A stretch of 21,161 nt of DNA, taken from IMG/VR virus record IMGVR_UViG_3300034063_000810, positions 1-21,161 of that record. The stretch is one strand, 5' to 3'. The translations under genes were made by a program, and so were the position numbers. The notes under the pieces are model-generated. The model did no database searches. It was not told where the DNA came from and worked only from the letters and a program-made list of their open reading frames with translations. This document shows positions 2,704 to 19,359 of this stretch, piece after piece. Source of the DNA: a virus. The first letter of the stretch is position 1, and the number at the start of each line of letters is the position of its first letter.

Positions 2704-2971
2704 CACCTGCGCCATGACACTCGCACAGAAGTCCGACTGCATCCTCGCCCAGACGCGAGGATTGAGCGGAGCGACACCGAACGCCACGCAACTCATCGAA
2801 GAACTGCGGTGGGCGTTGGAGGAGAACAGGAAGGAAGTCGAACGCCTTCACAAAGAGCGGGATGACGCAAGATTTCGGCTCTGCAAAGTCGTTGGGGACA
2901 ACCGCGAAATGTGGGCCGATGATGTAGCAAAGGAATACGGGTGGTCATACTTGAATGGGGACGGCAAGTGA
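2693..2971 (+). CDS. Small coiled-coil protein of the ERDEARR/GWxCF family, copy 2
   Basis: A 92-residue protein, ATG at 2693 preceded by AGAAGGAGA, overlapping the membrane-protein gene by 11 nt. The N-terminal half differs from the other copies (LIEELRWALEENRKEVERL). The core is RLHKERDDARFRLC and the tail is VAKEYGWSYLNGDGK, where the usual Cys after GW-x is replaced by Tyr. It ends in the second type of gene-end repeat (GGACGGCAAGTGAGC), which leads into a GTG start. Confidence 0.75.
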   Translation: MFSNTCAMTLAQKSDCILAQTRGLSGATPNATQLIEELRWALEENRKEVERLHKERDDARFRLCKVVGDNREMWADDVAKEYGWSYLNGDGK

Positions 2972-2973
2972 GC
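2959..2973 (+). repeat. Gene-end/GTG-start repeat, copy 1 of 2
   Basis: GGACGGCAAGTGAGC encodes DGK and the stop of one gene and the GTG-AGC start of the next. The same 15 nt occur at 4036-4050. Confidence 0.8.
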
Positions 2974-3252
2974 AAGAAGAAACCAAAGACGATTGATGCT
3001 TCCTGCCCCGTTACGTTGATGGGGTGCGAAGGAGAAGTGATCGTAGAGATGACTCCGACCGAGGCAGTTTCGATGCTCGAAAAGGCATGGCAGGAAAACA
3101 AGCGACTGCGGCAGGAGAACGCAACCATCACCGCCGAGCGCGACGAGGCAAGGCGGGAGGTGTGTCGGATGGCGACCGCTCACCACGGCGACCCACAAGC
3201 AATTGCGTGTGAACGCGGGTGGAGTTGCTTCAAGCGGGAGGACTCCCGATGA
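2968..3252 (+). CDS. Small coiled-coil protein of the ERDEARR/GWxCF family, copy 3
   Basis: A 94-residue protein from a GTG start overlapping the preceding TGA (GTGA), served by the GGGGACGG stretch. It has a distinct N-terminal part with two cysteines (CPVTLMGC), then a long helix (AVSMLEKAWQENKRLRQE), the family core TAERDEARREVC and the tail ACERGWSCFKREDSR. The conserved Cys near the core plus the CF tail fits copies 1 and 4. The gene ends in GGAGGACTCCCGATGA, coupling it to the methyltransferase gene. Confidence 0.7.
   Translation: MSKKKPKTIDASCPVTLMGCEGEVIVEMTPTEAVSMLEKAWQENKRLRQENATITAERDEARREVCRMATAHHGDPQAIACERGWSCFKREDSR
3237..3252 (+). repeat. Gene-end/SD repeat, copy 2 of 3
   Basis: GGAGGACTCCCGATGA, identical to 2264-2279 and 3821-3836; it couples the small coiled-coil gene to the Dam-type methyltransferase gene. 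Confidence 0.85.
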
Positions 3253-3836
3253 ATCTGTATTCCCTGCCGGAAATGGAAATTAACGGTAGCGATGAGGTCT
3301 ACACCCCGCCGTGTTTGTTTGAGCGCCTTGGACTGACATTTGACATTGATGTCTGCGCGCCAACTGGCGGCCTTCCGTGGATACCAGCAACTCGGCATTT
3401 CTCGATTGCCGAAAACGGATTGGCGCAGCCGTGGGATGGTCGCGTTTGGTGCAATCCCCCGTACTCAAACGCCACGCCGTGGATTCGCAAGTTCATAGAG
3501 CATCGAAACGGGATCATCCTGATTCCAATGTGTCGATCACGGGCTTTCATCGAATTGTGGAATGCAGCTGATGCCGTTTGCGTGCCATCCGCTTTCAACA
3601 TCACGGGCGATTCGTGCCATTTTCTCAAGGACAACAAGAAACGGCTGATCGGATTTGCGGTGATGCTTGCAGCATTTGGGCCATCCTGTGCCAAAGCACT
3701 CAAGCAAACGGGACATACGCGACACAGTCAGAACCACGCCGAAGCAATGCTAGAGAGAATTCACCACCTGGAATACGATCAAGCGTGTTCCGATGGATGG
3801 GATGAACGCACCGAATTGCCGGAGGACTCCCGATGA
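3249..3836 (+). CDS. dam: Phage DNA N6-adenine methyltransferase (Dam family)
   Basis: A 195-residue protein from the ATGA overlap at 3249. It fits the phage Dam family that methylates adenine with S-adenosylmethionine. The N-terminus has DEVYTPP (15-21), where this family usually has DEWxTP, then FDIDVCAP. The catalytic motif is NPPY at residues 69-72 in VWCNPPYSN. A strand IILIPMCRSR and later VCVPSAFNI complete the Rossmann-like core. The length is normal for the family. The target cannot be read from sequence; GATC is common in this window, so it is not avoided. The likely role is protection from host restriction. The final EDSR is encoded by the repeat that couples it to the next gene. 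Confidence 0.88.
   Translation: MNLYSLPEMEINGSDEVYTPPCLFERLGLTFDIDVCAPTGGLPWIPATRHFSIAENGLAQPWDGRVWCNPPYSNATPWIRKFIEHRNGIILIPMCRSRAFIELWNAADAVCVPSAFNITGDSCHFLKDNKKRLIGFAVMLAAFGPSCAKALKQTGHTRHSQNHAEAMLERIHHLEYDQACSDGWDERTELPEDSR
3821..3836 (+). repeat. Gene-end/SD repeat, copy 3 of 3
   Basis: GGAGGACTCCCGATGA, identical to 2264-2279 and 3237-3252; it forms the end of the Dam-type gene and the start signal of the next. Confidence 0.85.
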
Positions 3837-4048
3837 AGGACATCGTCACGCAGCTTCGCGCCAACAGCGAGTGCCTTGCGCCGTCGATCATGCTCGAGGC
3901 CGCCGACACCATCGAACGCCTCACCATTGAGCGCGACAAGGCTAGGCGGGAGTTATGCCAGGAGATATTCACCAACGGTGGACTCCGACCAAGCGAATAC
4001 GCAAGACATCGCTGCTGGGATTGCTACAAGCAGGAGGACGGCAAGTGA
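3833..4048 (+). CDS. Small coiled-coil protein of the ERDEARR/GWxCF family, copy 4
   Basis: A 71-residue protein, the shortest and cleanest copy, starting at an ATGA overlap. It runs MKDIVTQLR, then LEAADTIERLTIERDKARRELC and the tail YARHRCWDCYKQEDGK, where Cys replaces the Gly before Trp. Its core shares a 15-nt identical stretch, ATCGAACGCCTCACC, with copy 1, so at least these two copies look like duplicates. It ends in the DGK/GTG-start repeat. Confidence 0.75.
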   Translation: MKDIVTQLRANSECLAPSIMLEAADTIERLTIERDKARRELCQEIFTNGGLRPSEYARHRCWDCYKQEDGK

Positions 4049-4284: not shown

Positions 4285-4536
4285 ATGGCAGTAATCACGA
4301 CCTACGATCAATTCAAGGCCACCATCACCGAAGCCGTGGCCGCCGCCGGCGGCACGCGATCCGGCCTTGCCCGCGAGATGGAAGCCAACGGCATCCTGCG
4401 CGCCCATACCGTCCGATGCCTCCTCGGCACACCCGGCACGGTCATCGGGAAGCGCAAGCCCACCTTCGACTCCATCCTGAAGGTGGCGAACGCCGCCGGG
4501 TTCGACCTCATCCTGATGGAAAGGAAGCACAAGTGA
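4285..4536 (+). CDS. Small HTH-like regulator
   Basis: An 83-residue protein. The ATG at 4285 is 7 nt after a TATGCT box and lacks an SD; an in-frame ATG at 4273 lies inside that box and is less likely. Residues 10-47 (FKATITEAV...GTRSGLAREMEANG...HTVRCLL) look like a helix-turn-helix. The C-terminal part, FDSILKVANAAGFDLIL, matches the end of many small Xre-type regulators and antitoxins. There is no toxin-like partner: the coupled downstream gene (GTGA overlap) is a DNA methyltransferase, so it may control that gene. The Xre-type assignment is moderate. Confidence 0.65.
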   Translation: MAVITTYDQFKATITEAVAAAGGTRSGLAREMEANGILRAHTVRCLLGTPGTVIGKRKPTFDSILKVANAAGFDLILMERKHK

Positions 4537-5780
4537 GCAAGGCCAAGACCCCCAGCGGCGTGGACATGGGCATCGTGGACATTCCCTGCGCCGAGCTACA
4601 CAACGACCCGGCCAACGTCCGCAAGCACGGGGAGCAGAACCTGGCTGCCATCAAGGCTAGCCTTGCCCGCTTTGGCCAACAGAAGCCCATCGTGGTCAAC
4701 CAGGACGGGGTGGTCATCGCCGGAAACGGAACCCTGATGGCCGCCCGCGCCCTGGGGTGGCAGACCATCAAGGCCGTCCGCACCAACCTCGCCGGCAGCG
4801 AGGCGACCGCCTTTGCCATCGCGGACAACCGCACCGCCGAACTGGCCGAATGGGACGATGCCGCCCTCCAGCAGCAGCTCGCCGCCATCGCCATCGACGA
4901 CGAGGAACTCCTTGCCGCCACAGGATTTGACGAGAAGGAACTCGCCAAGCTCGCCGCCGCCAACGCGCCCGAGGTGACCGAGGACGATGTACCCGAGCCG
5001 CCCGCCGACCCCATCACGCAACCCGGCGACCTGTGGCTGCTGGGCAAGCATCGCCTGCTCTGCGGGGACAGCACCAAGGCCGAGGACGTGGAGCGGCTGA
5101 TGAACGGCCATCGCGCCGACCTGATGCTTACCGACCCGCCCTACAACGTGGCGCTCGGAGTAGGGGAATCGCCGGAAGAAGCCAAGAGGCGGAATCGACG
5201 CGTGGACGGAAAGGTGGTTGCCAACGACAGCATGGGCGACACCGACTTCCGCGAGTTTCTCGTCGCCTGCTTTACTGCGGCATTCAGCAGCATGAAGCCC
5301 GGAGCGTCGTTCTACGTCTTCCACGCGGATAGTGAGGGGTACAACTTTCGCGGAGCAATCAGGGATTGCGGCCAGGTCGTGCGGCAGTGCCTGATCTGGG
5401 CCAAGGACATACTCATCATGGGCCGGCAGGACTACCAGTGGCAGCACGAACCGTGCCTGTACGGCTGGAAGGACGGCGCGGCCCACGGCTGGTACAGCGA
5501 CCGAAAGCAGACCACGCTGCTGCGCTTTGACCGCCCCAAGCGCAGCGAGGAACACCCGACGATGAAGCCCGTGGGCATGTTCGCCTACCTGATGGGAAAC
5601 AGCACCGCGCCCCAAGGACTGGCCTACGACCCGTTCCTCGGCAGCGGCACCACTCTCGTTGCCGCCGAGCAGCTTGGGCGCGTCTGCTACGGCATGGAAA
5701 TCAGCCCCGCGTACTGCGATGTCATCGTGAAGCGGTGGGAAACCCTGACCGGGCAGACGGCAACCCGCGAGGAAGTGTAA
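4533..5780 (+). CDS. ParB-domain/DNA methyltransferase fusion
   Basis: A 415-residue protein from a GTG that overlaps the preceding stop (GTGA), with AAAGGAAG as SD. The N-terminal part (about 17-105) is a ParB/sulfiredoxin-like domain (HNDPANVRKHGEQ, IVVNQDGVVIAGNGTL). The C-terminal part is an N6-adenine or N4-cytosine methyltransferase of the beta order: catalytic DPPY at 201-204 comes before the SAM-binding motif DPFLGSGTT at 366-374. PTMKPV, just before the latter, is typical of the family. This fusion is widespread in phages and prophages. Likely role: modification of phage DNA; the site is unknown. Whether the ParB domain binds or cuts DNA here is open. Confidence 0.92.
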   Translation: MSKAKTPSGVDMGIVDIPCAELHNDPANVRKHGEQNLAAIKASLARFGQQKPIVVNQDGVVIAGNGTLMAARALGWQTIKAVRTNLAGSEATAFAIADNRTAELAEWDDAALQQQLAAIAIDDEELLAATGFDEKELAKLAAANAPEVTEDDVPEPPADPITQPGDLWLLGKHRLLCGDSTKAEDVERLMNGHRADLMLTDPPYNVALGVGESPEEAKRRNRRVDGKVVANDSMGDTDFREFLVACFTAAFSSMKPGASFYVFHADSEGYNFRGAIRDCGQVVRQCLIWAKDILIMGRQDYQWQHEPCLYGWKDGAAHGWYSDRKQTTLLRFDRPKRSEEHPTMKPVGMFAYLMGNSTAPQGLAYDPFLGSGTTLVAAEQLGRVCYGMEISPAYCDVIVKRWETLTGQTATREEV

Positions 5781-10821: not shown

Positions 10822-10834
10822 TACGATGGAAGGC
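10822..10834 (+). promoter_or_regulatory. Leaderless-type -10 promoter overlapping an SD-led start
   Basis: TACGAT at 10822-10827 is followed by exactly 7 nt and the ATG at 10835. The last two bases of the box overlap an in-frame ATG at 10826, which has its own SD (GAGAGGA, starting at 10811). As at 501/507, two in-frame starts appear to be used by two mRNA types. Confidence 0.6.
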
Positions 10835-12154
10835 ATGAGCGACACTCGCAAGGAAATCGCGTCCCGGCTTGGCATTATTGCGAAGGCGACATTTGGCATA
10901 TGGGGTGATGCGCCTGACAAGTATCGCGCTGCCATCGACTTCATTCAGGCCCAGCGCACGCCATCCAGCGCGGCAATGAGCGATCTCAAGAAGGCGATCA
11001 AGCGTCGGCAGCTTCAGTCTGCGCAGACAAAGAATCCCGAAACCAAGCAGATGCTTGAGGATGACGTTGGCGGACTTCAGAACGTGCTCGACTACGCGCA
11101 GCGAGGCGATCACTCGACGCTGCTCCGTTCCGCGTACAACCTCGACACCGAGGTGCGCGACGACATTCCCGTCGAAATGTTTATTTGGGCCGGCGCGGAC
11201 GTTAATTGGAACCACCGCAATGCCAAGAGCCTGCTTGACACCATCAGCCAGCTTGTCCGCAGATCAAAGCACGGCAAGTCAAAGCATGGTCTGATGTCCC
11301 GCCCCGGCGCGAAGGCAAAGTTCGCAGAGGACGCGAAGGAAGTCGCGCAGGAGATTCTTCGCCAACTGGGCGGCGGTTCTTTCATGGCGATGGTCGGCGG
11401 CAAGAACGCGCTGCACGGCAACTTCGGCGGTAGCCCCGGCCTACAGATCGACATTGGCAAGGGCGCGAAGGACGGCATCAACCGTCTGATCGTGACGCTT
11501 GATCGTGGCACCGACACCTACGATATGGAGTTTTGGCGCATCGCCAACCGTGGCATGACCACCAAGAAGGTGGCCGAGGCAAACGGTGTGTACGCCGAAG
11601 CGCTGCGTCGGATGTTTACGAGCAAGACGGATTTCCGCACTTCGCTGTTCTCCCGCCCCGGCGCGAAGGCCGCGATGGGCCTCGAGGACGCGTGCTGGAA
11701 GGGCTACGAGGCCGTGGGCATGAAGACCAAGGACGGCAAGGACGTTCCCAACTGCGTCCCGAAGGCCACCGCCGCCAAGCCCGAATTTCCGGTGAAGGTT
11801 GGAGACCGAGTTCATGCTGGACTTGCAACGGCAGGCGGCGCGGGTGTAGTTGGAACCGTCACGAAGATTGAAGACGGCTACGCGCACATTCGTGCCGATG
11901 CGTCTGCGTCTGACAGGTATGGCGCGCAGACCTACAAGGCTCCATTGCGCTTGATTACGGCTGCTCCGAAGAAGGCATATGAGGCTGCCAAGCCCGAGAT
12001 CGAAGAGACCGAGCAGGACAAGGCCGGCCTCAAGCTCATGGAGAAGGCCGACAAGGCCGTCAGCGACAAGATCCGCACACTCATCAAGGAAGGCAAGCCG
12101 CAGGAACAAGCGGTTGCCATTGCGCTCGACATGAAGCGCCGAGGAGAAATCTGA
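10835..12154 (+). CDS. Mosaic phage protein built from recurrent small domains
   Basis: A 439-residue protein (442 from the ATG at 10826). Its N-terminus resembles that of the protein at 7629. Segments in order: helical region to about 150; SRPGAKA (155-161); a domain with ILRQLGGGSFMAMVGGKNAL and RLIVTLDRGTDTYDMEFWRI; a second SRPGAKA (273-279); ACWKGYEAVGMK and DVPNCVP; an SH3/KOW-like stretch (VKVGDRVHAG...GVVGTVTKIEDGYAHI); and a C-terminal AVAIALDMKRRGEI. Several of these are short modules I recall from unrelated phage proteins of unknown role. The two SRPGAKA sites lie in 20-bp identical DNA repeats. It sits between gpF and the surface genes; probably a virion or assembly protein. Confidence 0.7.
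   Translation: MSDTRKEIASRLGIIAKATFGIWGDAPDKYRAAIDFIQAQRTPSSAAMSDLKKAIKRRQLQSAQTKNPETKQMLEDDVGGLQNVLDYAQRGDHSTLLRSAYNLDTEVRDDIPVEMFIWAGADVNWNHRNAKSLLDTISQLVRRSKHGKSKHGLMSRPGAKAKFAEDAKEVAQEILRQLGGGSFMAMVGGKNALHGNFGGSPGLQIDIGKGAKDGINRLIVTLDRGTDTYDMEFWRIANRGMTTKKVAEANGVYAEALRRMFTSKTDFRTSLFSRPGAKAAMGLEDACWKGYEAVGMKTKDGKDVPNCVPKATAAKPEFPVKVGDRVHAGLATAGGAGVVGTVTKIEDGYAHIRADASASDRYGAQTYKAPLRLITAAPKKAYEAAKPEIEETEQDKAGLKLMEKADKAVSDKIRTLIKEGKPQEQAVAIALDMKRRGEI
11297..11316 (+). repeat. 20-bp direct repeat, left copy
   Basis: TCCCGCCCCGGCGCGAAGGC, encoding SRPGAK(A). Identical to 11651-11670, 354 bp (118 codons) downstream in the same frame; together they bracket one domain of the mosaic protein. Confidence 0.9.
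11651..11670 (+). repeat. 20-bp direct repeat, right copy
   Basis: Identical to 11297-11316 and in the same reading frame. Recombination between the two would remove exactly 354 bp without shifting the frame. Confidence 0.9.
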
Positions 12155-12732
12155 TGCCCCCCATTACGACCCCGCAGGAAAACTTCCGCAAGGCTTCGGC
12201 CGCGTCCGTCCCGGCCACCTACAACGCGGCATCCGCCGTCCTGACCACGACCGTGCCGTCTAGCGGGACTTCGGGAAGCGGGAACGTGCTGCTGTTTGAC
12301 ATCACCAGCGCATCGGTGAGCGGTCAGAACGCCTCCCTGCTGTACGTCATGCCGTTTATTGTGGTGGCTGGCACGCCATCAAATACCACTATCGGTATGC
12401 GGATCATCGGGTGGCGAAAGTATCTTGAGGCGGCTGGCACGACCTTTTGGTACATCCCTACGGTGCTGGCGGACCTTACTCTCGGCTTCACTAGCCCCGC
12501 GTCCTCAACGCCCTCGTACACCATCGACAGCGTTGCGAATACGCGCACGTTCAGCAGCATCACGCAGGTCTCGGGAACCCCGTCAGGCAACCTCTATTCC
12601 CCGGCCACGGCCGCTAGCTCAAACGTGGAGCCTGCCTACGCCATGATCGACCTAGCGGGCGCGCAGTACGTCACCGCCCAATTCAAGTCCAGCGGCACGC
12701 CCGACATGGGCGCGTTCTGGTCCACCCTCTGA
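12154..12732 (+). CDS. Probable virion protein, unknown
   Basis: A 192-residue protein starting at TGATG (1-nt overlap), with GAGGAG (12141-12146) as SD. It is rich in Ser, Thr, Ala and short hydrophobic strands (GNVLLFDITSASVSG, LLYVMPFIVVAGTPSN, AGTTFWYIPTVLADLTLGF), a beta-rich profile seen in capsid-surface or fibre proteins. Charged residues are few. No signal peptide or catalytic motif is visible. The neighbours are surface/adhesin-like genes, so an external virion component is likely but unproved. Confidence 0.65.
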   Translation: MPPITTPQENFRKASAASVPATYNAASAVLTTTVPSSGTSGSGNVLLFDITSASVSGQNASLLYVMPFIVVAGTPSNTTIGMRIIGWRKYLEAAGTTFWYIPTVLADLTLGFTSPASSTPSYTIDSVANTRTFSSITQVSGTPSGNLYSPATAASSNVEPAYAMIDLAGAQYVTAQFKSSGTPDMGAFWSTL

Positions 12733-13601
12733 TGAATCGCGCCAACCGCCCAAGGCTTGGTCGCGTCACGGGCAGCTCTTATTCGAGCCGCTTAATGTCG
12801 CGTGCTGGTTACACCGCGGAGGTACTCGTCGTTGCTGGCGGTGGTGGCGGTGGAAGACCAACAAACAGCAGTTATGCAGGCGGCGGCGGCGGCGCTGGTG
12901 GACTTGTCTATAGAACATCGACTTTGGTCGGCGGGACTACTTACCAAGTCACCGTTGGTGCTGGTGGTGCAGGAGCTGCAACTACTTCCGAACCGGGAGG
13001 AGATGGTTCCAATTCGGTGGTGAGCATCTTGGCATTGACTGCAGTCGGTGGCGGCGGTGGCGGATCGGCCGGAACTAGCAAAGGAAACGGTCGTAACGGT
13101 GGATGCGGAGGCGGTGCAAACGGGTCTACCGGATTGACTGGTGGAACCGGAAGCCAAGGATTCAATGGCGGCAATGCCGGAGATGGCAACGCCCAATACC
13201 GTGGCGCTGGTGGCGGTGGAATGGCAGCCGCTGGTTCAAACGGCGGAAGCGCAAACGCAAACGGAGGCGCTGGCGTTTCCTACTTCGGAAATACCTATTG
13301 CGGTGGTGGCGGCGGCGGTGCAGGAGGATCAACTGCTGGTAGCGGTGGCTCCGGTGGTGGTGGTCCTGGTGGAAATTCAACCTCCCTAACTGGCACCGCA
13401 GGAACAAACCTGACAGGCGGCGGCGGTGGTGGTGGTGGAAACAGCGGAAGTAACAATGGCGCAGGAGCAAAAGGCGGCGACGGCGTCGTTGTGTTCCGTT
13501 ACGCAGGAAGCACGCAAATTGCAACGGGTGGAACGGTATCCATTTCAGGTGGCTACGTCACTCATACTTTCTCAGCAAACGGAAACTTGGTGATTCCATG
13601 A
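12732..13601 (+). CDS. Glycine-rich adhesin/tail-fibre-type protein
   Basis: A 289-residue protein starting at TGATG. From about residue 30 it has the repeating pattern VLVVAGGGGGG...GGGGGAGGLVY...TYQVTVGAGGAG, then long Gly/Ser/Asn stretches with poly-Gly runs of 5 to 8. It ends GGDGVVVFRYAG...GGYVTHTFSANGNLVIP. This is the glycine-rich domain of phage fibres and adhesins, where poly-Gly helices pack as a receptor-binding tip. There is no signal peptide, consistent with a virion protein. Runs of GGC/GGT make the gene prone to length change. Its composition differs from the head genes around it. Confidence 0.8.
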   Translation: MNRANRPRLGRVTGSSYSSRLMSRAGYTAEVLVVAGGGGGGRPTNSSYAGGGGGAGGLVYRTSTLVGGTTYQVTVGAGGAGAATTSEPGGDGSNSVVSILALTAVGGGGGGSAGTSKGNGRNGGCGGGANGSTGLTGGTGSQGFNGGNAGDGNAQYRGAGGGGMAAAGSNGGSANANGGAGVSYFGNTYCGGGGGGAGGSTAGSGGSGGGGPGGNSTSLTGTAGTNLTGGGGGGGGNSGSNNGAGAKGGDGVVVFRYAGSTQIATGGTVSISGGYVTHTFSANGNLVIP

Positions 13602-13810: not shown

Positions 13811-13881
13811 AGCTCGTTGCCGCCGTACTGCTGCTCACCGCCGTGCTTTCCAACGCCACGCTTCAGTCTCTCACCGCATGA
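13807..13881 (+). CDS. 24-residue signal-peptide-like ORF
   Basis: It starts at an ATGA overlap with the preceding gene and reads MKLVAAVLLLTAVLSNA followed by seven residues to a stop. One Lys, a hydrophobic core and an SNA end give a good signal-peptide or small membrane-peptide profile. It fills the whole gap between two genes. It could be a real membrane micropeptide, the remnant of a longer secreted protein, or a coupling ORF that carries ribosomes to the next start at 13889. It is short, so chance is possible. Confidence 0.4.
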   Translation: MKLVAAVLLLTAVLSNATLQSLTA

Positions 13882-13888
13882 GGATCTA

Positions 13889-14275
13889 ATGGGAACCGCA
13901 GGCTACGTCCCCAACTTCAAGGCAGGATCGACCGTCTACCCGTTCCGGGTGGTGCGGATGGATACCAGCGCGGCGTTCACGGCAATCCCGGCTACCGATC
14001 CCGCTCAAATCGTCCTCGGCGTTACGGACGGATCGACGCGAGCGTTTGACTCCACCGAACACGCGGCAGCAGGCGGTACGATCAGTCTTCAGAACAGCCG
14101 TTTCGTCCAGGTGCAGTCCAACGGGACCATCGTGGTCGGTGATCTCCTCAAGGCATCAACGGCTGGTCTCGTGGAGAAAATTGGTACGGGGGAACGTGCG
14201 TTCCTTCAGGCGTGCGACAATGCCGCTAGCGGTGAAATTCTTTGGGCCTTCCGCGTTCAGACCTGGGAGATTTGA
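13889..14275 (+). CDS. Decoration-protein paralogue
   Basis: A 128-residue protein; the ATG at 13889 has GAGGA just upstream. It runs GTAGYVPNFKAGSTVYPFRVV, then IVLGVTDGSTRAFDST, SLQNSRFVQVQSNGTIVVGDLL and SGEILWAFRVQ. The same arrangement is found in the first 125 residues of the next gene and in the 135-residue protein at 17877 beside the capsid gene. The features (small beta protein, GVTDGSTR turn, G-x-x-x-GD-L) suit a trimeric head-decoration or cement protein. As a stand-alone copy away from the capsid gene it may decorate the head together with the fused copy downstream. Confidence 0.75.
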   Translation: MGTAGYVPNFKAGSTVYPFRVVRMDTSAAFTAIPATDPAQIVLGVTDGSTRAFDSTEHAAAGGTISLQNSRFVQVQSNGTIVVGDLLKASTAGLVEKIGTGERAFLQACDNAASGEILWAFRVQTWEI

Positions 14276-14278
14276 CAT

Positions 14279-16354
14279 ATGGGCATCGCAGGACACACTC
14301 CGAACTTCACCGCCGCAGGAACCATCCTGCCGTTCTCGTGCGTCGAAGCAACCACCACCGACCCGTTCAAGGTCGTGGTGGCTACCGCCGAAACGGACAT
14401 TGTGCTTGGTGTGACGGACGGAAGTACACGCGCGTTCGACTCCACGAACAATGCCTTGGCTGGTGACCCGGTCGTGCTTCAGAACAGCGAATTCCTTCAG
14501 CTCCGCGCTGGCGGAACCATCGCCATCGGTGACGGTCTTTGCCCGACCACCAACGGCGCGGTGATTACCGCAACGACTCGCATTCAATTTGTCGCCTGCG
14601 AGGCGGCAAGCAGCGGCGAAATCCTGTGGGCGCAGCGGGTGGGATCGGTGGACAATGCCGAGGCTGGTGTGTACGGGAGCAGCCGTGCCGGCGCATTTCT
14701 TCGAGATGTGATGGCCGGAAACGACTCCGTGGACATCGTGGTGTTCGGAGACAGCAACGCTGGATCGCCGGGAGTATGCGGGTACACCTACGGATGGTCT
14801 TCGGCAATGGCTGCGCTTGGAGCGCCTAATTACGCAACGCCGTTGCATCCATGCGATTCTGAAGATGGCGGAAATGAGCGTTACGGCGGGATGTTTATGC
14901 AGTGGAACGGGTACATCTGGAATGGAAGATCGCAAGAGGATATTGGATTTGTGTATTCGCTTACTAACCGGATTGCTGTCGCAAGTGATACAGATGCCAC
15001 TGCTCTCAACACCACGTTCGACAATTTGTTTGTCCGGGAAAACACCGCTGTTGCTTCCTCATCCACGACGCTGCAGCTTGATGCTGGTGCGTCATCGGTG
15101 AATAACGCATACACCGGAATGTTCATCGGCATTTTGTCGGGTGCGGTAGGAAGCACGTACCCCTCCGGCTCCTCATTCAATTACGGAAAAATTACGGCAT
15201 ACAACGGCACGACCAAGACGGCAACAGTTAGCGGTTGGTCAGTAAGCACGCCAAGTAGTACGGCATCATTTGTGATCGCCAAAGCATTTTGGAAGCCAGC
15301 ATCTTTCAATATTGGTGTTGCGTTTGTTCCGGCAGGCACAACCTACACATCATTCGGCGGCGGCACAAGTGTTCGACTGAATGGAGGTAGTCAACTTGCA
15401 AGCGGCCCAACTGGTGGTGCGGGGGTGTCTCTGCAATACCGCCTCGTGTACGGAAAGTTTGCTACGACTGGAGGCACCTTCCGACTTCGTGCCATGAAGG
15501 GAAGCAATACGCTTGTCGCAGGGAGCGCAAACGACATCCCGACGAGCGGCGGCACCGGATATGACACGGAGAAGCTTAACTTCAGCTCAAGTAATACTGG
15601 CGGAGCGCCGGACGAGATGAAGTGTTCGTGGGCTGGTTACAACACCGGAACGACATATCGAGTTACAGGGCCGTTCGCAGCGTTCTATCACTCGGTGATT
15701 CGCAGGAGTTATAAAGGATTCAGCGTAAGCTGCCTCAACTACTTTGGCGGCGCTACGACTGAATTGCTGGCCGATCTTGTTGAAGCTACGCCCAAGTACC
15801 TGGAGTCGTACCTGAAGGAACTTCGGGAGCGACAGATTGAAGCAGGTGGATCTGGGCGCGTTGTGTGGTGGCACAACAGCGGCATCAATGGATCGGAAAC
15901 AGGATCGACCTGGACGATCAATGCCGCAAGAATCAGAGATGCAGTCTACAACGTGTGGGTCACAACGCTCGGCTATCCGGCAACAGACCTGTCGTTCGTG
16001 ATGTCCGTGACACACCCAGTCGTTGCGGGAGATCCCGGCGCAGGCACATGGGACACGAGTCGTCCTGCAGTAGCACAAGCGGCAGCAAATTGGGCGACTA
16101 CGAATTCAAACGATGGAAAGAATGTCACGGTTGTGGACATTGCATCCATCTTGACGGCGCAGCAGATCAGGGACAGGAACCTGTATCAGAACCTGTCAAA
16201 CACTCTCTATGCAGCGCATCTGCGAAGTCAGCCCACCGTCACGACAACGCCGACTTACAGTCCATCCACATTCACAGGTCTGTCGGATTCTGCTTCGCCG
16301 GACAACGGGTACACCGTGATCACGACCGGAATCATTCGCAAGCTCATCGCCTGA
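14279..16354 (+). CDS. Decoration domain fused to SGNH-hydrolase-like domain
   Basis: A 691-residue protein; GGGAGA (14265-14270) serves as SD. Residues 1-125 repeat the decoration-protein pattern (IVLGVTDGSTRAFDST, GEILWAQRVG). After a linker comes IVVFGDSNAG with GDSN at 157-160, the block I signature of SGNH/GDSL hydrolases (S159 would be the nucleophile). Further candidates are VVWWHNSG (H532, N533), SVTHPV (H579) and LYAAHLRS (H647), the last resembling the C-terminal catalytic His, though the usual Asp three before it is absent. Between these lies a beta-rich insert (about 240-440). It could remove acyl groups from host surface glycans. Later parts are less GC-rich than the head genes. 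Confidence 0.75.
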   Translation: MGIAGHTPNFTAAGTILPFSCVEATTTDPFKVVVATAETDIVLGVTDGSTRAFDSTNNALAGDPVVLQNSEFLQLRAGGTIAIGDGLCPTTNGAVITATTRIQFVACEAASSGEILWAQRVGSVDNAEAGVYGSSRAGAFLRDVMAGNDSVDIVVFGDSNAGSPGVCGYTYGWSSAMAALGAPNYATPLHPCDSEDGGNERYGGMFMQWNGYIWNGRSQEDIGFVYSLTNRIAVASDTDATALNTTFDNLFVRENTAVASSSTTLQLDAGASSVNNAYTGMFIGILSGAVGSTYPSGSSFNYGKITAYNGTTKTATVSGWSVSTPSSTASFVIAKAFWKPASFNIGVAFVPAGTTYTSFGGGTSVRLNGGSQLASGPTGGAGVSLQYRLVYGKFATTGGTFRLRAMKGSNTLVAGSANDIPTSGGTGYDTEKLNFSSSNTGGAPDEMKCSWAGYNTGTTYRVTGPFAAFYHSVIRRSYKGFSVSCLNYFGGATTELLADLVEATPKYLESYLKELRERQIEAGGSGRVVWWHNSGINGSETGSTWTINAARIRDAVYNVWVTTLGYPATDLSFVMSVTHPVVAGDPGAGTWDTSRPAVAQAAANWATTNSNDGKNVTVVDIASILTAQQIRDRNLYQNLSNTLYAAHLRSQPTVTTTPTYSPSTFTGLSDSASPDNGYTVITTGIIRKLIA

Positions 16355-16355
16355 C

Positions 16356-17855
16356 ATGGAAATCGACCTCAAGCCAACCGACGAGATGGCCGCCAACGCC
16401 GAGCGTGGGCTGGCGCTGCGCGAGAAGCACGGACGCGGTGGCACGGAGGTGGGCGTGGCTCGAGCGCGGGACATCAAGAACCGCAAGAACCTGTCCCCGG
16501 ACACGGTGCGCCGGATGAACTCCTACTTCGCCCGCCACGAGGTGGACAAGAAGGGCGAGGGTTGGGGCAAGGATTCGGCCGGGTATATCGCGTGGCTTCT
16601 GTGGGGCGGCGATGCGGGCAAGGCGTGGGCCGACCGCAAGAGCAAGGAACTGGACCGCAAGGAGGACAAGAACGTGAATAGCAAGGCATCGCACAGCGTG
16701 CAGGATGACGGCGAGAAGATCAAGATTGAGCGTGTGGAGCTGTTCATGGCGTTCGACCCGGCCATCGACGATGGCGAGGCTGACCCGGAGCTGAAGCGGT
16801 TCAACAACGAGCGCCTGAAGTCCATCGTCCGCGCCACTCGCGCCCACATGGCGCGTGGCTCCTTCCCCCAGGTCGTGGTCATGCACGAGAAGAACGGGGA
16901 CGAGCCGAAGAGCGCCGTGGGAAGAATTCCCACGATCAATTACGAAGAACGCAATGGCATCGGTTACATTGTGGGAGACATGGAGGTGAACAAGCCCATC
17001 TTCGACAGCCTCATTGCAACCAACGCGTTCCCGCGTCGGTCGGCAGAGATTTGGGCTGAATCGAACCACCTGTCGGAAGTGGCCCTGCTGGGCCGCGAAA
17101 CCCCGCGCCGGCCGTTGCCCGATACCCACTTCGCCCGCGAGGGAAAGAAGATCACTTGTTCCAAGTCAAACTTCGACCTCGCCGGGGTCGGAGGCGGACT
17201 CAACACCTTTGTCCCGGCGACCACCAAGGAGGAAGCCTCAATGGCATCCAACGATTACCGCGAAGAGCTTGAGGCGATGAAGTGCGCCATCGGCGAACTC
17301 GCTGACATGATGAAGAAGAAGTTCGGTGAGGACGAGTCCAAGGACAAGAAGGACGAGATGTCCGCCGAGTCCGAGACCGACATGGAATTCCAGGCCAACG
17401 AAGGCGACGAAGGCGTTCACATCGACATCGGCAGCCATGACGTTGAGGCTCCCGAGGAAGAGGAAGAGGCCATGCCCGTGGTGGCTGCACGTTCGACCTA
17501 CGCCCTGCGTTCGGAGAACGCCCGCCTCAAGTCCCGCATGGAGCGCCTCGAGGCCGAAGTGCGCCGCGAGAAGTTCTCCCGCGAGATCGACATTCTCGAG
17601 CAGGATGGCTACCGCATCCCCGAGTCGCAGCGCGACAATCTGATGACCCAGCTCCAGGCCAGCCGCGATCCGGTTGCCCTGCTTGAGTCGTGGCGCTCCC
17701 TGTTCTCCCGTGACCCCATCGGCGCGAAGATCGACATGAGCCGCGCGGCCATGCCGAAGACCGTCAGCGGTGGCGACATCTCCTCGTTGGTCAAGGAATT
17801 CGCCGGCAAGCCGGAAGAGTTTGCCAAGGCCATCAACTCCCGAATCAAGCGTTAA
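16356..17855 (+). CDS. Prohead protease and scaffold fusion
   Basis: A 499-residue protein starting 1 nt after the previous stop. Residues 7-98 form a conserved phage module (AERGLALREKHGRGGT, LSPDTVRRMNSYFARHEVDKKG, AWLLWGGDAGKAWA). Residues about 115-265 look like a Mu gpI-type capsid protease (VGRIPTINYEERNGIGYIVGDM, FPRRSAEIW, LSEVALLGRETPRRPLP). Catalytic residues cannot be fixed by eye. After VGGGLNTFVP (278-287) come acidic stretches (EEEEEA) and a coiled coil (LRSENARLKSRMERLEAEVRR), typical of scaffold. A strong internal start at 17241 would give free scaffold, as in the lambda C/Nu3 arrangement. Confidence 0.8.
   Translation: MEIDLKPTDEMAANAERGLALREKHGRGGTEVGVARARDIKNRKNLSPDTVRRMNSYFARHEVDKKGEGWGKDSAGYIAWLLWGGDAGKAWADRKSKELDRKEDKNVNSKASHSVQDDGEKIKIERVELFMAFDPAIDDGEADPELKRFNNERLKSIVRATRAHMARGSFPQVVVMHEKNGDEPKSAVGRIPTINYEERNGIGYIVGDMEVNKPIFDSLIATNAFPRRSAEIWAESNHLSEVALLGRETPRRPLPDTHFAREGKKITCSKSNFDLAGVGGGLNTFVPATTKEEASMASNDYREELEAMKCAIGELADMMKKKFGEDESKDKKDEMSAESETDMEFQANEGDEGVHIDIGSHDVEAPEEEEEAMPVVAARSTYALRSENARLKSRMERLEAEVRREKFSREIDILEQDGYRIPESQRDNLMTQLQASRDPVALLESWRSLFSRDPIGAKIDMSRAAMPKTVSGGDISSLVKEFAGKPEEFAKAINSRIKR
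17226..17240 (+). promoter_or_regulatory. Internal ribosome binding site for nested scaffold
   Basis: AAGGAGGA at 17226-17233, 7 nt before an in-frame ATG at 17241. It is one of the best SD sequences in the window although it lies inside a gene, and is exactly where protease-like sequence gives way to scaffold-like sequence. Confidence 0.75.
17241..17855 (+). CDS. Nested scaffold protein (internal start)
   Basis: A 204-residue protein in the same frame as the protease fusion (Met296 of the long form), starting MASNDYREELEAMK after a near-perfect SD. It is acidic in its first half (DESKDKKDEMSAESETDMEFQ-like, then EAPEEEEEA), has a coiled coil near 110-145 and a C-terminal helical region (ISSLVKEFAGKPEEFAKAI), the composition of capsid scaffolds that bind capsid protein at their C-terminus. 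It would be made in excess over the protease form and removed by proteolysis. Independent production is an inference. Confidence 0.65.
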   Translation: MASNDYREELEAMKCAIGELADMMKKKFGEDESKDKKDEMSAESETDMEFQANEGDEGVHIDIGSHDVEAPEEEEEAMPVVAARSTYALRSENARLKSRMERLEAEVRREKFSREIDILEQDGYRIPESQRDNLMTQLQASRDPVALLESWRSLFSRDPIGAKIDMSRAAMPKTVSGGDISSLVKEFAGKPEEFAKAINSRIKR

Positions 17856-17876: not shown

Positions 17877-18284
17877 ATGCTTCAGTTCTCCCCCAATCTC
17901 ATCGCAGGCGGCGACATCAACCCCTTCGCCATCGTGAAGATGTCCACCACCGCATTTACGGGTGTGGCTTCCACCGCTGCTGGTGACTACGTCGTCGGCG
18001 TTGCTGACGGTTCGACTCGTCGTTTCGACTCCGCGCTTCACGCACAGGCGGCTACGTCAACTACGCCGGCGGACCCGATCAGCCTCCAGCCGTCCAACTG
18101 CGTGCAGCTCAAGTGCAACGGCTCCACGGCCATCACCGCTGGTCTTGCTCTCAAGGCAACGACCGCCGGCGCAGCCGTTGGTACGTCCACGAGCGGCGAT
18201 GTTCCCCTGTTTGTTGCTCTCGAGGATGCGTCGGTTGGCGCGATCTTCTGGGCTTACCGTCTCCCCGCCACCAAGGCGATCTGA
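17877..18284 (+). CDS. Head decoration protein (capsid cement)
   Basis: A 135-residue protein directly before the major capsid gene, the standard place for decoration proteins that stabilise the expanded head. An AAGGAC at about 17862-17867 is a distant SD. The features are FSPNLIAGGDINPFAIV, YVVGVADGSTRRFDS, DPISLQPSNCVQLKCNG, AGLALKATTAG and VGAIFWAYRL, matching in order the proteins at 13889 and 14279. Here a short Thr/Ala/Pro insert precedes DPISL. The codon choice, with many GCT/GTT codons like the capsid gene, fits high expression. Confidence 0.78.
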   Translation: MLQFSPNLIAGGDINPFAIVKMSTTAFTGVASTAAGDYVVGVADGSTRRFDSALHAQAATSTTPADPISLQPSNCVQLKCNGSTAITAGLALKATTAGAAVGTSTSGDVPLFVALEDASVGAIFWAYRLPATKAI

Positions 18285-18309: not shown

Positions 18310-19359
18310 ATGAGTTATGTCGCAGTCGGTGGCGGACTGAATACGTTCGTCCCCTCCACCAATGCCCTCGCAACGGGCGCTCTCCAGGTTGAATTCACCC
18401 GTGCGGTGAACACCTTCCCCATCACGAAGTACGCGCAGATCGTTCCCACTCAGCAGATGACGGGCTTCTACCTCCGTCTTGACTCGGACGACAACGTCCG
18501 CGTGACTGATGTGAACGAGTTCGCTTGGCCCCTGGGCAACGACCGCCCGGTCGGCAAGATGAACCAGCACGACTTCGTTGCGTTCACCGCTGCTCGATTT
18601 GCGTTCCCGTTCTACATCCCGAACGAGACCGTGAAGCAGGCCGCGTGGGACGTTGTCGCTCAGCACGCTCGCTCCAAGGCGCAGCTCGCCATGACGGCTC
18701 GCTCTATGCGTACCGCGACCGCCCTCACGAATTCTGCGGCCGTGACGGCGTTCACCGCAGCCGGCAACTACTTCGCAACGGGTACGGCTTCGGCTGCTGG
18801 TGGCCCGTGGACGAGTGCTGGTAGCCCGGACAACCGCATTCAGAAGGGCATTCAGCAGGCTCTTCAGCGCATTTCGCTTGCCACGGGCGGCGCGGTGCGT
18901 GGTGAGACTGACATCATGATGGTCATTTCCCCGACCATTGCGAATGCTCTTTCGCAGACTTCGGAAGTTCGTGACTACGTCAAGAACTACCCGGCCGCTC
19001 TGCCCTTCCTTCAGGGTGCGGACACGTTCGCCAAGTACGGCCTCCCGCCGAACCTGTTCGGCGTGCAGGTCGTGGTCGATGACAGCGTGAAGGTCACCAC
19101 CCGCAAGGGTGCTGCCAGCACCACGCGTGAGTTCGTCTACGGCAACTCGGCGGTTTTCGTTAGCCGTCCGGGTGGCCTGGTGGGCGTGGAAGGTTCCACC
19201 TCGTTCTCCACCGTGCAGATCTTCGCCTTTGAGGACATGACCGTTGAGAACTGGGACGATCCGTATGATCGTCGCATGGAAGGCCGCGTGATCGACAACA
19301 GCACCTCGGAACTGGTTGCTCCGGTGTCCGGCTTCCTGGTTGCTAACATTACGGCCTGA
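18310..19359 (+). CDS. Major capsid protein
   Basis: A 349-residue protein with the strongest SD of the window, after scaffold/protease and decoration genes and followed by a strong hairpin: the expected context and expression level. The N-terminus SYVAVGGGLNTFVPST repeats ten residues of the protease fusion. The body has NTFPITKYAQIVP, a long helix (ETVKQAAWDVVAQHARSKAQL), DNRIQKGIQQALQRISLATGG, MMVISPTIANAL and a C-terminal GVEGSTSFSTVQIFAFED, compatible with the HK97 fold although not provable by eye. The size is typical. T-rich codon choice in a GC-rich genome suggests selection for expression. Confidence 0.82.
   Translation: MSYVAVGGGLNTFVPSTNALATGALQVEFTRAVNTFPITKYAQIVPTQQMTGFYLRLDSDDNVRVTDVNEFAWPLGNDRPVGKMNQHDFVAFTAARFAFPFYIPNETVKQAAWDVVAQHARSKAQLAMTARSMRTATALTNSAAVTAFTAAGNYFATGTASAAGGPWTSAGSPDNRIQKGIQQALQRISLATGGAVRGETDIMMVISPTIANALSQTSEVRDYVKNYPAALPFLQGADTFAKYGLPPNLFGVQVVVDDSVKVTTRKGAASTTREFVYGNSAVFVSRPGGLVGVEGSTSFSTVQIFAFEDMTVENWDDPYDRRMEGRVIDNSTSELVAPVSGFLVANITA

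Follow-up and report, generated by a model that had tools for sequence, protein, structure and literature searches.

In a window of 21,161 nucleotides (positions 1 to 21,161 of the IMG/VR virus record IMGVR_UViG_3300034063_000810, the whole stretch of DNA that we analysed), the head-coat protein of a bacterial virus appears to have been copied and fused to an exchangeable enzyme of the sugar-esterase type, which removes acetyl groups, so that not just the tail but also the head would present an enzyme to the host; the same kind of join appears in relatives and in at least one other phage lineage. The gene concerned is a single open reading frame made up of two domains, a decoration domain and an SGNH hydrolase domain (Table 1), and we consider it probable that its product is a capsid-displayed SGNH enzyme that de-acetylates host surface glycans.

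Two domains in one reading frame

When the fusion protein was compared with the translated DNA of the window, residues 1-122 matched 13889-14260 (52% identity, E 6e-32) and residues 7-122 matched 17889-18266 (49% identity, E 2e-18), matches that, as judged from sequence, far exceed chance. These regions belong to two free-standing decoration proteins: deco2, whose listed open reading frame (13817-14275) probably starts too early, and deco1, which in the window, as in the relatives that cover that region, is the gene immediately 5' of the one for the major capsid protein. A preliminary description of this DNA, made from its letters alone, had already likened the N-terminal part to the protein at 17877, and the likeness holds, with residues 1-124 being ~45-52% identical to deco1 and deco2; the second decoration copy and the block II and III residues were absent from that description. 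All three decoration sequences match phrog_673 (head and packaging), and deco1 scored below the curated cut-off of Pfam Phage_cement_2 (PF09956; 10.5 bits vs 24). A profile built from 32 decoration sequences (A4) matched the HFTV1 capsid stabilization protein (CSP; 8qsy; E 7e-4); its match to the phi29 capsid fibre protein was weak (6qyy; E 0.055). When modelled with AlphaFold2, deco1 (pLDDT 90.8) retrieved the HFTV1 CSP, the N-terminal base of phi29 gp8.5, the Sf11 capsid and the TW1 stabilising protein in Foldseek, with TM scores of 0.6-0.7 to 8qsy and 6qyy. Similarly, in the model of the whole fusion protein (pLDDT 87.0, pTM 0.80), the N-terminal domain matched the gp8.5 base (6qyy; TMt 0.75) as well as the HFTV1 CSP. 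Searches of cultured phages with the capsid and decoration proteins gave no matches. Two other contigs join a domain of this decoration family to a tailspike-like protein: L142 (6009-8264), where the partner is a pectate-lyase beta-helix, and L077 (1688-3724).

Sequence searches with the SGNH part against Pfam, the PDB and cultured phages returned nothing useful, and fold comparison was therefore needed. The top PDB match of the full model was 4k3u, a peptidoglycan O-acetylesterase that we take to be Ape1 of Neisseria (E 3e-8), and further fold matches, interspersed with decoration proteins, were the carbohydrate esterase PbeAcXE, a CE2 esterase and a GDSL-like lipase; residues 129-691 are thus predicted to fold like SGNH carbohydrate or peptidoglycan O-acetylesterases. 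The preliminary description had proposed a GDSN block I motif at 157-160, a candidate C-terminal catalytic histidine and a comparison of the predicted structures of both parts. The motif and the histidine (H647) are present, and both structural comparisons came out as proposed: the N-terminal part is predicted to fold like capsid-stabilising proteins and the part after residue 140 like an SGNH esterase, with all four SGNH residues invariant. In an alignment of 52 diverse relatives, D158, S159, N160, G491, G535, N537 and H647 were invariant and G157 was kept in all but one (51/52). A chance occurrence of GDSN was considered and rejected, since the four letters alone would be weak but the catalytic residues are invariant in the 52 relatives. 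In block V of SGNH enzymes the catalytic histidine is usually accompanied by an aspartate three residues before it. A conserved aspartate was absent there in the 52-relative comparison, position 644 being Y, G, N or F, and the GDSL proteins that occupy the same slot in relatives (Pfam-recognised in L046) are also without it. The Pfam GDSL model did not match the fusion protein and matched only one of 48 alignment members (E 0.04), for which the large insertion in the domain may be the reason. A beta segment inserted between blocks I and II gave a weak match to a Microcystis phage protein and is missing from L010, L011 and L012; part of the relative L158 matches annotated tail proteins, a region whose correspondence to the beta segment was judged by eye. 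Un-fused SGNH relatives of about 650 aa occur in L132-L134, and the one in L132 has a CBM5/12-like segment near its C-terminus (E 1.2e-4).

The SGNH domain appears to be under purifying selection (dN/dS 0.06-0.23 where computable). A pseudogene was ruled out, dN/dS being well below 1, and so was a chimera of assembly, since the contigs L010, L011, L061, L114 and L200 share the architecture.

Table 1. Positions of the fusion gene, its domains and active-site blocks, and its neighbours in the window.
Feature	Position	Strand	Basis or remark
Conserved slot gene	12154..12732	+	in relatives usually directly upstream of un-fused SGNH cargo
Glycine-rich tail-fibre-like cargo gene, same slot	12732..13601	+	Pfam Gly_rich_2, E 2.8e-25
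deco2, free-standing second decoration copy, directly upstream of fusion	13889..14275	+	52% identity to fusion N-domain
Decoration domain-SGNH hydrolase fusion gene, 691 aa	14279..16354	+	open reading frame; AlphaFold2 model
Capsid-decoration domain, residues 1-124	14279..14650	+	identity to two free copies; Foldseek
SGNH hydrolase domain with large insertion, residues 129-691	14663..16351	+	predicted; Foldseek; family alignment A2
Block I GDSN, 157-160, predicted nucleophile S159	14747..14758	+	conservation in 52 relatives
Beta insertion between blocks I and II	15020..15292	+	part possibly resembles phage tail protein module
Block II glycine G491 in NYFGGATT	15749..15751	+	invariant in 52 relatives
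Block III G535-I-N537	15881..15889	+	G535, N537 invariant in 52 relatives
Block V putative catalytic histidine H647	16217..16219	+	invariant in 52 relatives
Probable protease/scaffold, between fusion and deco1	16356..17855	+	conserved neighbour in relatives; role by position
deco1, head decoration protein beside major capsid gene	17877..18284	+	AlphaFold2 model; Foldseek
Major capsid protein	18310..19359	+	phrog_29 major head protein, E 1.6e-4

Exchange of the enzyme half and recurrence of the join

Comparison of the window with L010 and L011 revealed DNA identities of 86-100% across deco2 and the decoration domain of the fusion (with one 75-base bin at 78%), a drop to about 40-60% at the domain boundary, about 30-60% in most bins of the SGNH part, and again about 90% or more just 3' of the fusion gene. 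Close relatives retain the decoration half, joined to an SGNH half that is divergent. The SGNH cassette (14629-16390) is also present in contig G001, at 97.7% DNA identity over 1762 bp (dS 0.05) and with a different decoration domain; G001 carries a DNA polymerase gene and is otherwise little related to the window. When 52 SGNH domains were placed on a maximum-likelihood tree, 8 state changes were needed to account for the 10 decoration-anchored tips. By sequence, the SGNH half has been exchanged repeatedly on a constant anchor.

In relatives, 42 distinct slots were compared, and free decoration copies were found only together with fused cargo. Automatic scoring had assigned L061 a free copy without a fusion and L141 neither, because the slot boundary that was set automatically falls within their genes; both actually have the pair, and a decoration copy and fusion are likewise present in L200. 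The slots of relatives also contain, among other cargo, glycine-rich proteins, arrays of fibronectin type III domains and another GDSL family, which Pfam recognises, and in L105 the slot between muF/g10826 and the protease/scaffold gene is empty, so that cargo seems dispensable there. In several phage types, the genes of un-fused SGNH proteins are often directly preceded by a 12154-family gene, whose product might serve as an adaptor for such cargo, and these SGNH proteins often have a short Arg-rich stretch at their start. Such starts are frequent in cargo genes that have no decoration domain, examples being MRAIRTRQLF, MNRANRPRLGR and MQRAARPSRPRL. The large gene at 10826-12154 of the window, like that at 2648-4606 of L200, has repeated SRPGAKA(K/A)(M/F) motifs between variable segments, which look like repeated processing or targeting tags.

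The podovirus L161 repeats independently the layout of a copy beside the capsid gene, a free copy and an SGNH-fused copy. Its genes run in the order major head protein (phrog_9953), 164-aa protein, SU10-type adaptor and, after two more genes, a free copy of 161 aa followed by a 901-aa protein in which the same N-terminal domain is fused to SGNH; this 901-aa protein is found also in L164 and L166. The N-terminal domain of this fusion is 51% and 38% identical to its two copies, and the free copy matches phrog_122 (head decoration) and passes Phage_cement_2 (34.4 bits vs a cut-off of 24). Profile comparison of the window decoration family with the L161 family gave no credible homology, and we therefore treat them as separate families; with the layout of L161, this indicates that two separate decoration families have been joined to SGNH. 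In L198, the SGNH domain sits on a domain related to the L161 family, and the L152 relative of that domain lies beside a capsid gene. Searches of cultured phages with the L152 SGNH protein and the L161 fusion gave no matches. On sequence evidence we accept the domain identities, the catalytic residues, purifying selection, the pairing with deco2 and the exchange of the SGNH half.

Proposed head display and competing readings

Head display of a glycan O-acetylesterase is, we infer, the best reading, and the virion location, trimer mixing, substrate and benefit of the fusion protein are deduced as follows. The N-terminal beta-barrel duplicates the phage's own decoration protein and would enter decoration trimers on the capsid surface. 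From there the C-terminal SGNH domain would point outward and strip O-acetyl groups from polysaccharide of the host surface, which would help the particle to bind or pass the polysaccharide layer before the tail engages. deco2, strictly paired with the fusion, may mix with it in trimers, leaving only some positions to carry the bulky enzyme, a dilution that may be likened to engineered lambda D display. The preliminary description had thought of capsule crossing or mucus binding, either of which is possible; we prefer removal of O-acetyl groups from surface polysaccharide because it fits the structural matches better. Scans of genome contigs with the capsid protein and with the SGNH domain turned up no host or prophage.

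The decoration domain could instead be a general trimeric virion anchor located at the neck or tail, making the enzyme a tailspike or neck appendage. We regard this as unlikely, yet it is the strongest competitor of head display. Since the anchor family also bears tailspike-like beta-helices (the pectate-lyase/tailspike fusions of L142 and L077), the protein might conceivably attach elsewhere than on the head shell; the SGNH domain has many relatives that are not anchored and that, in other phages, are encoded near tail or lysis genes, as is the SGNH protein of G001, and a review includes a phi29 preneck appendage among the fold relatives of gpD (PMC7602432). Against these observations, the domain is most similar, within its own genome, to the protein encoded next to the major capsid gene and to the copy of that protein, its PDB relatives are capsid-surface proteins, a gene of its own gives tail-protein matches in a close relative, and a second cement family has been fused independently.

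If the protein does sit on the head, its SGNH fold might have been kept as a lectin without catalysis, turning the enzyme into an adhesin. The absent conserved aspartate and the carbohydrate-binding modules that are also found among the Foldseek matches to the model would agree with this, as would the carbohydrate binding that one review describes as common in decoration proteins (PMC7602432); complete conservation of the active-site Ser, Gly, Asn and His in 52 diverse sequences is, however, unexpected under binding alone, and we think an adhesin improbable. Least probable of all is an enzyme that removes O-acetyl groups from peptidoglycan during entry or lysis, as in Ape1, rather than from surface glycans, because, although the best structural match is a peptidoglycan O-acetylesterase and some un-fused relatives adjoin small lipoprotein-like, possibly lysis-related genes, a head-surface anchor would keep the enzyme distant from peptidoglycan, the gene sits in the head cluster in the window phage and its relatives, and cassette exchange at a domain boundary is typical of surface recognition and not of lysis.

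Beyond the single gene, we give roughly even odds to a wider proposal, that a two-part head display has evolved repeatedly, in which a second decoration copy carries an exchangeable glycan esterase and a free copy sets its dose, with cassettes traded between otherwise different phages and the head being an evolving organ of host recognition like the tail tip.

Known systems and further observations in the window

Three precedents were known beforehand, namely the anchor layout of phi29 gp8.5, the deacetylase of the HFTV1 turret and the Hoc-GDSL fusion of phage PG7. According to the accessible text of two papers (PMC6542822, PMC7602432), gp8.5 has an N-terminal beta-barrel base of ~110 residues, trimers of which attach to the capsid at quasi-three-fold sites. 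The fold of this base matches our N-terminal domain, and it bears, as in the fusion, a projecting C-terminal part; in gp8.5 this part is a supercoiled fibre and not an enzyme, and neither a free copy nor cassette exchange is described in that text. The HFTV1 turret exposes a polysaccharide deacetylase-like domain on the capsid surface that is proposed to modify host glycans (PMC12494034). It differs in being from an archaeal virus, in having a Zn-dependent deacetylase-like fold rather than SGNH, and in placing the enzyme on a separate hexameric base with no decoration-domain fusion. In Enterobacter phage PG7, a Hoc capsid-binding domain fused to a GDSL/SGNH hydrolase has been mentioned in passing, and the same phage has a second, shorter Hoc-like protein (PMC10385173). 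We found a GDSL domain in a 520-codon open frame of the PG7 record; the anchor differs, being the Hoc domain, and no kinship was detectable between the PG7 SGNH and that of the window family.

Virion SGNH proteins are also found in G7C gp63.1 and Possum gp66, but on tail fibres and not on the head, and O-deacetylation of host O-polysaccharide has been shown for Possum gp66 (PMC9569702). Vibrio phage Peru-2 encodes a 473-aa GDSL esterase, P2_42, beside its tailspike gene, which is abundant in purified virions and for which the authors speculate on an internal location; by description it resembles the un-fused arrangement of our relatives, and a decoration domain is not mentioned (PMC13320782). 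The closest structure to the enzyme part, 4k3u, is a bacterial protein without a virion anchor. Literature searches within an open-access library turned up no earlier account of a fusion between this decoration fold and SGNH.

Sugar-modifying phage enzymes are usually sought on tails, and should exchangeable esterases be present on the head too, searches confined to tails would overlook part of what gives a phage access to its host. The fusion would be a natural counterpart of engineered head display, in which the free partner could dilute a large fusion, and the repeated independent joins of cement proteins to SGNH make enzymatic heads directly testable.

Elsewhere in the window, four small open reading frames (2276-2527, 2693-2971, 2941-3252 and 3833-4048) have, by eye, a common ERDxAR...C...W ending and look like tandem paralogues. 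Also by eye, 3219-3836 has a DNA-methyltransferase-like motif (CNPPY), and 4416-5780 has a ParB-like start followed by a DNA-methyltransferase-like DPPYN.
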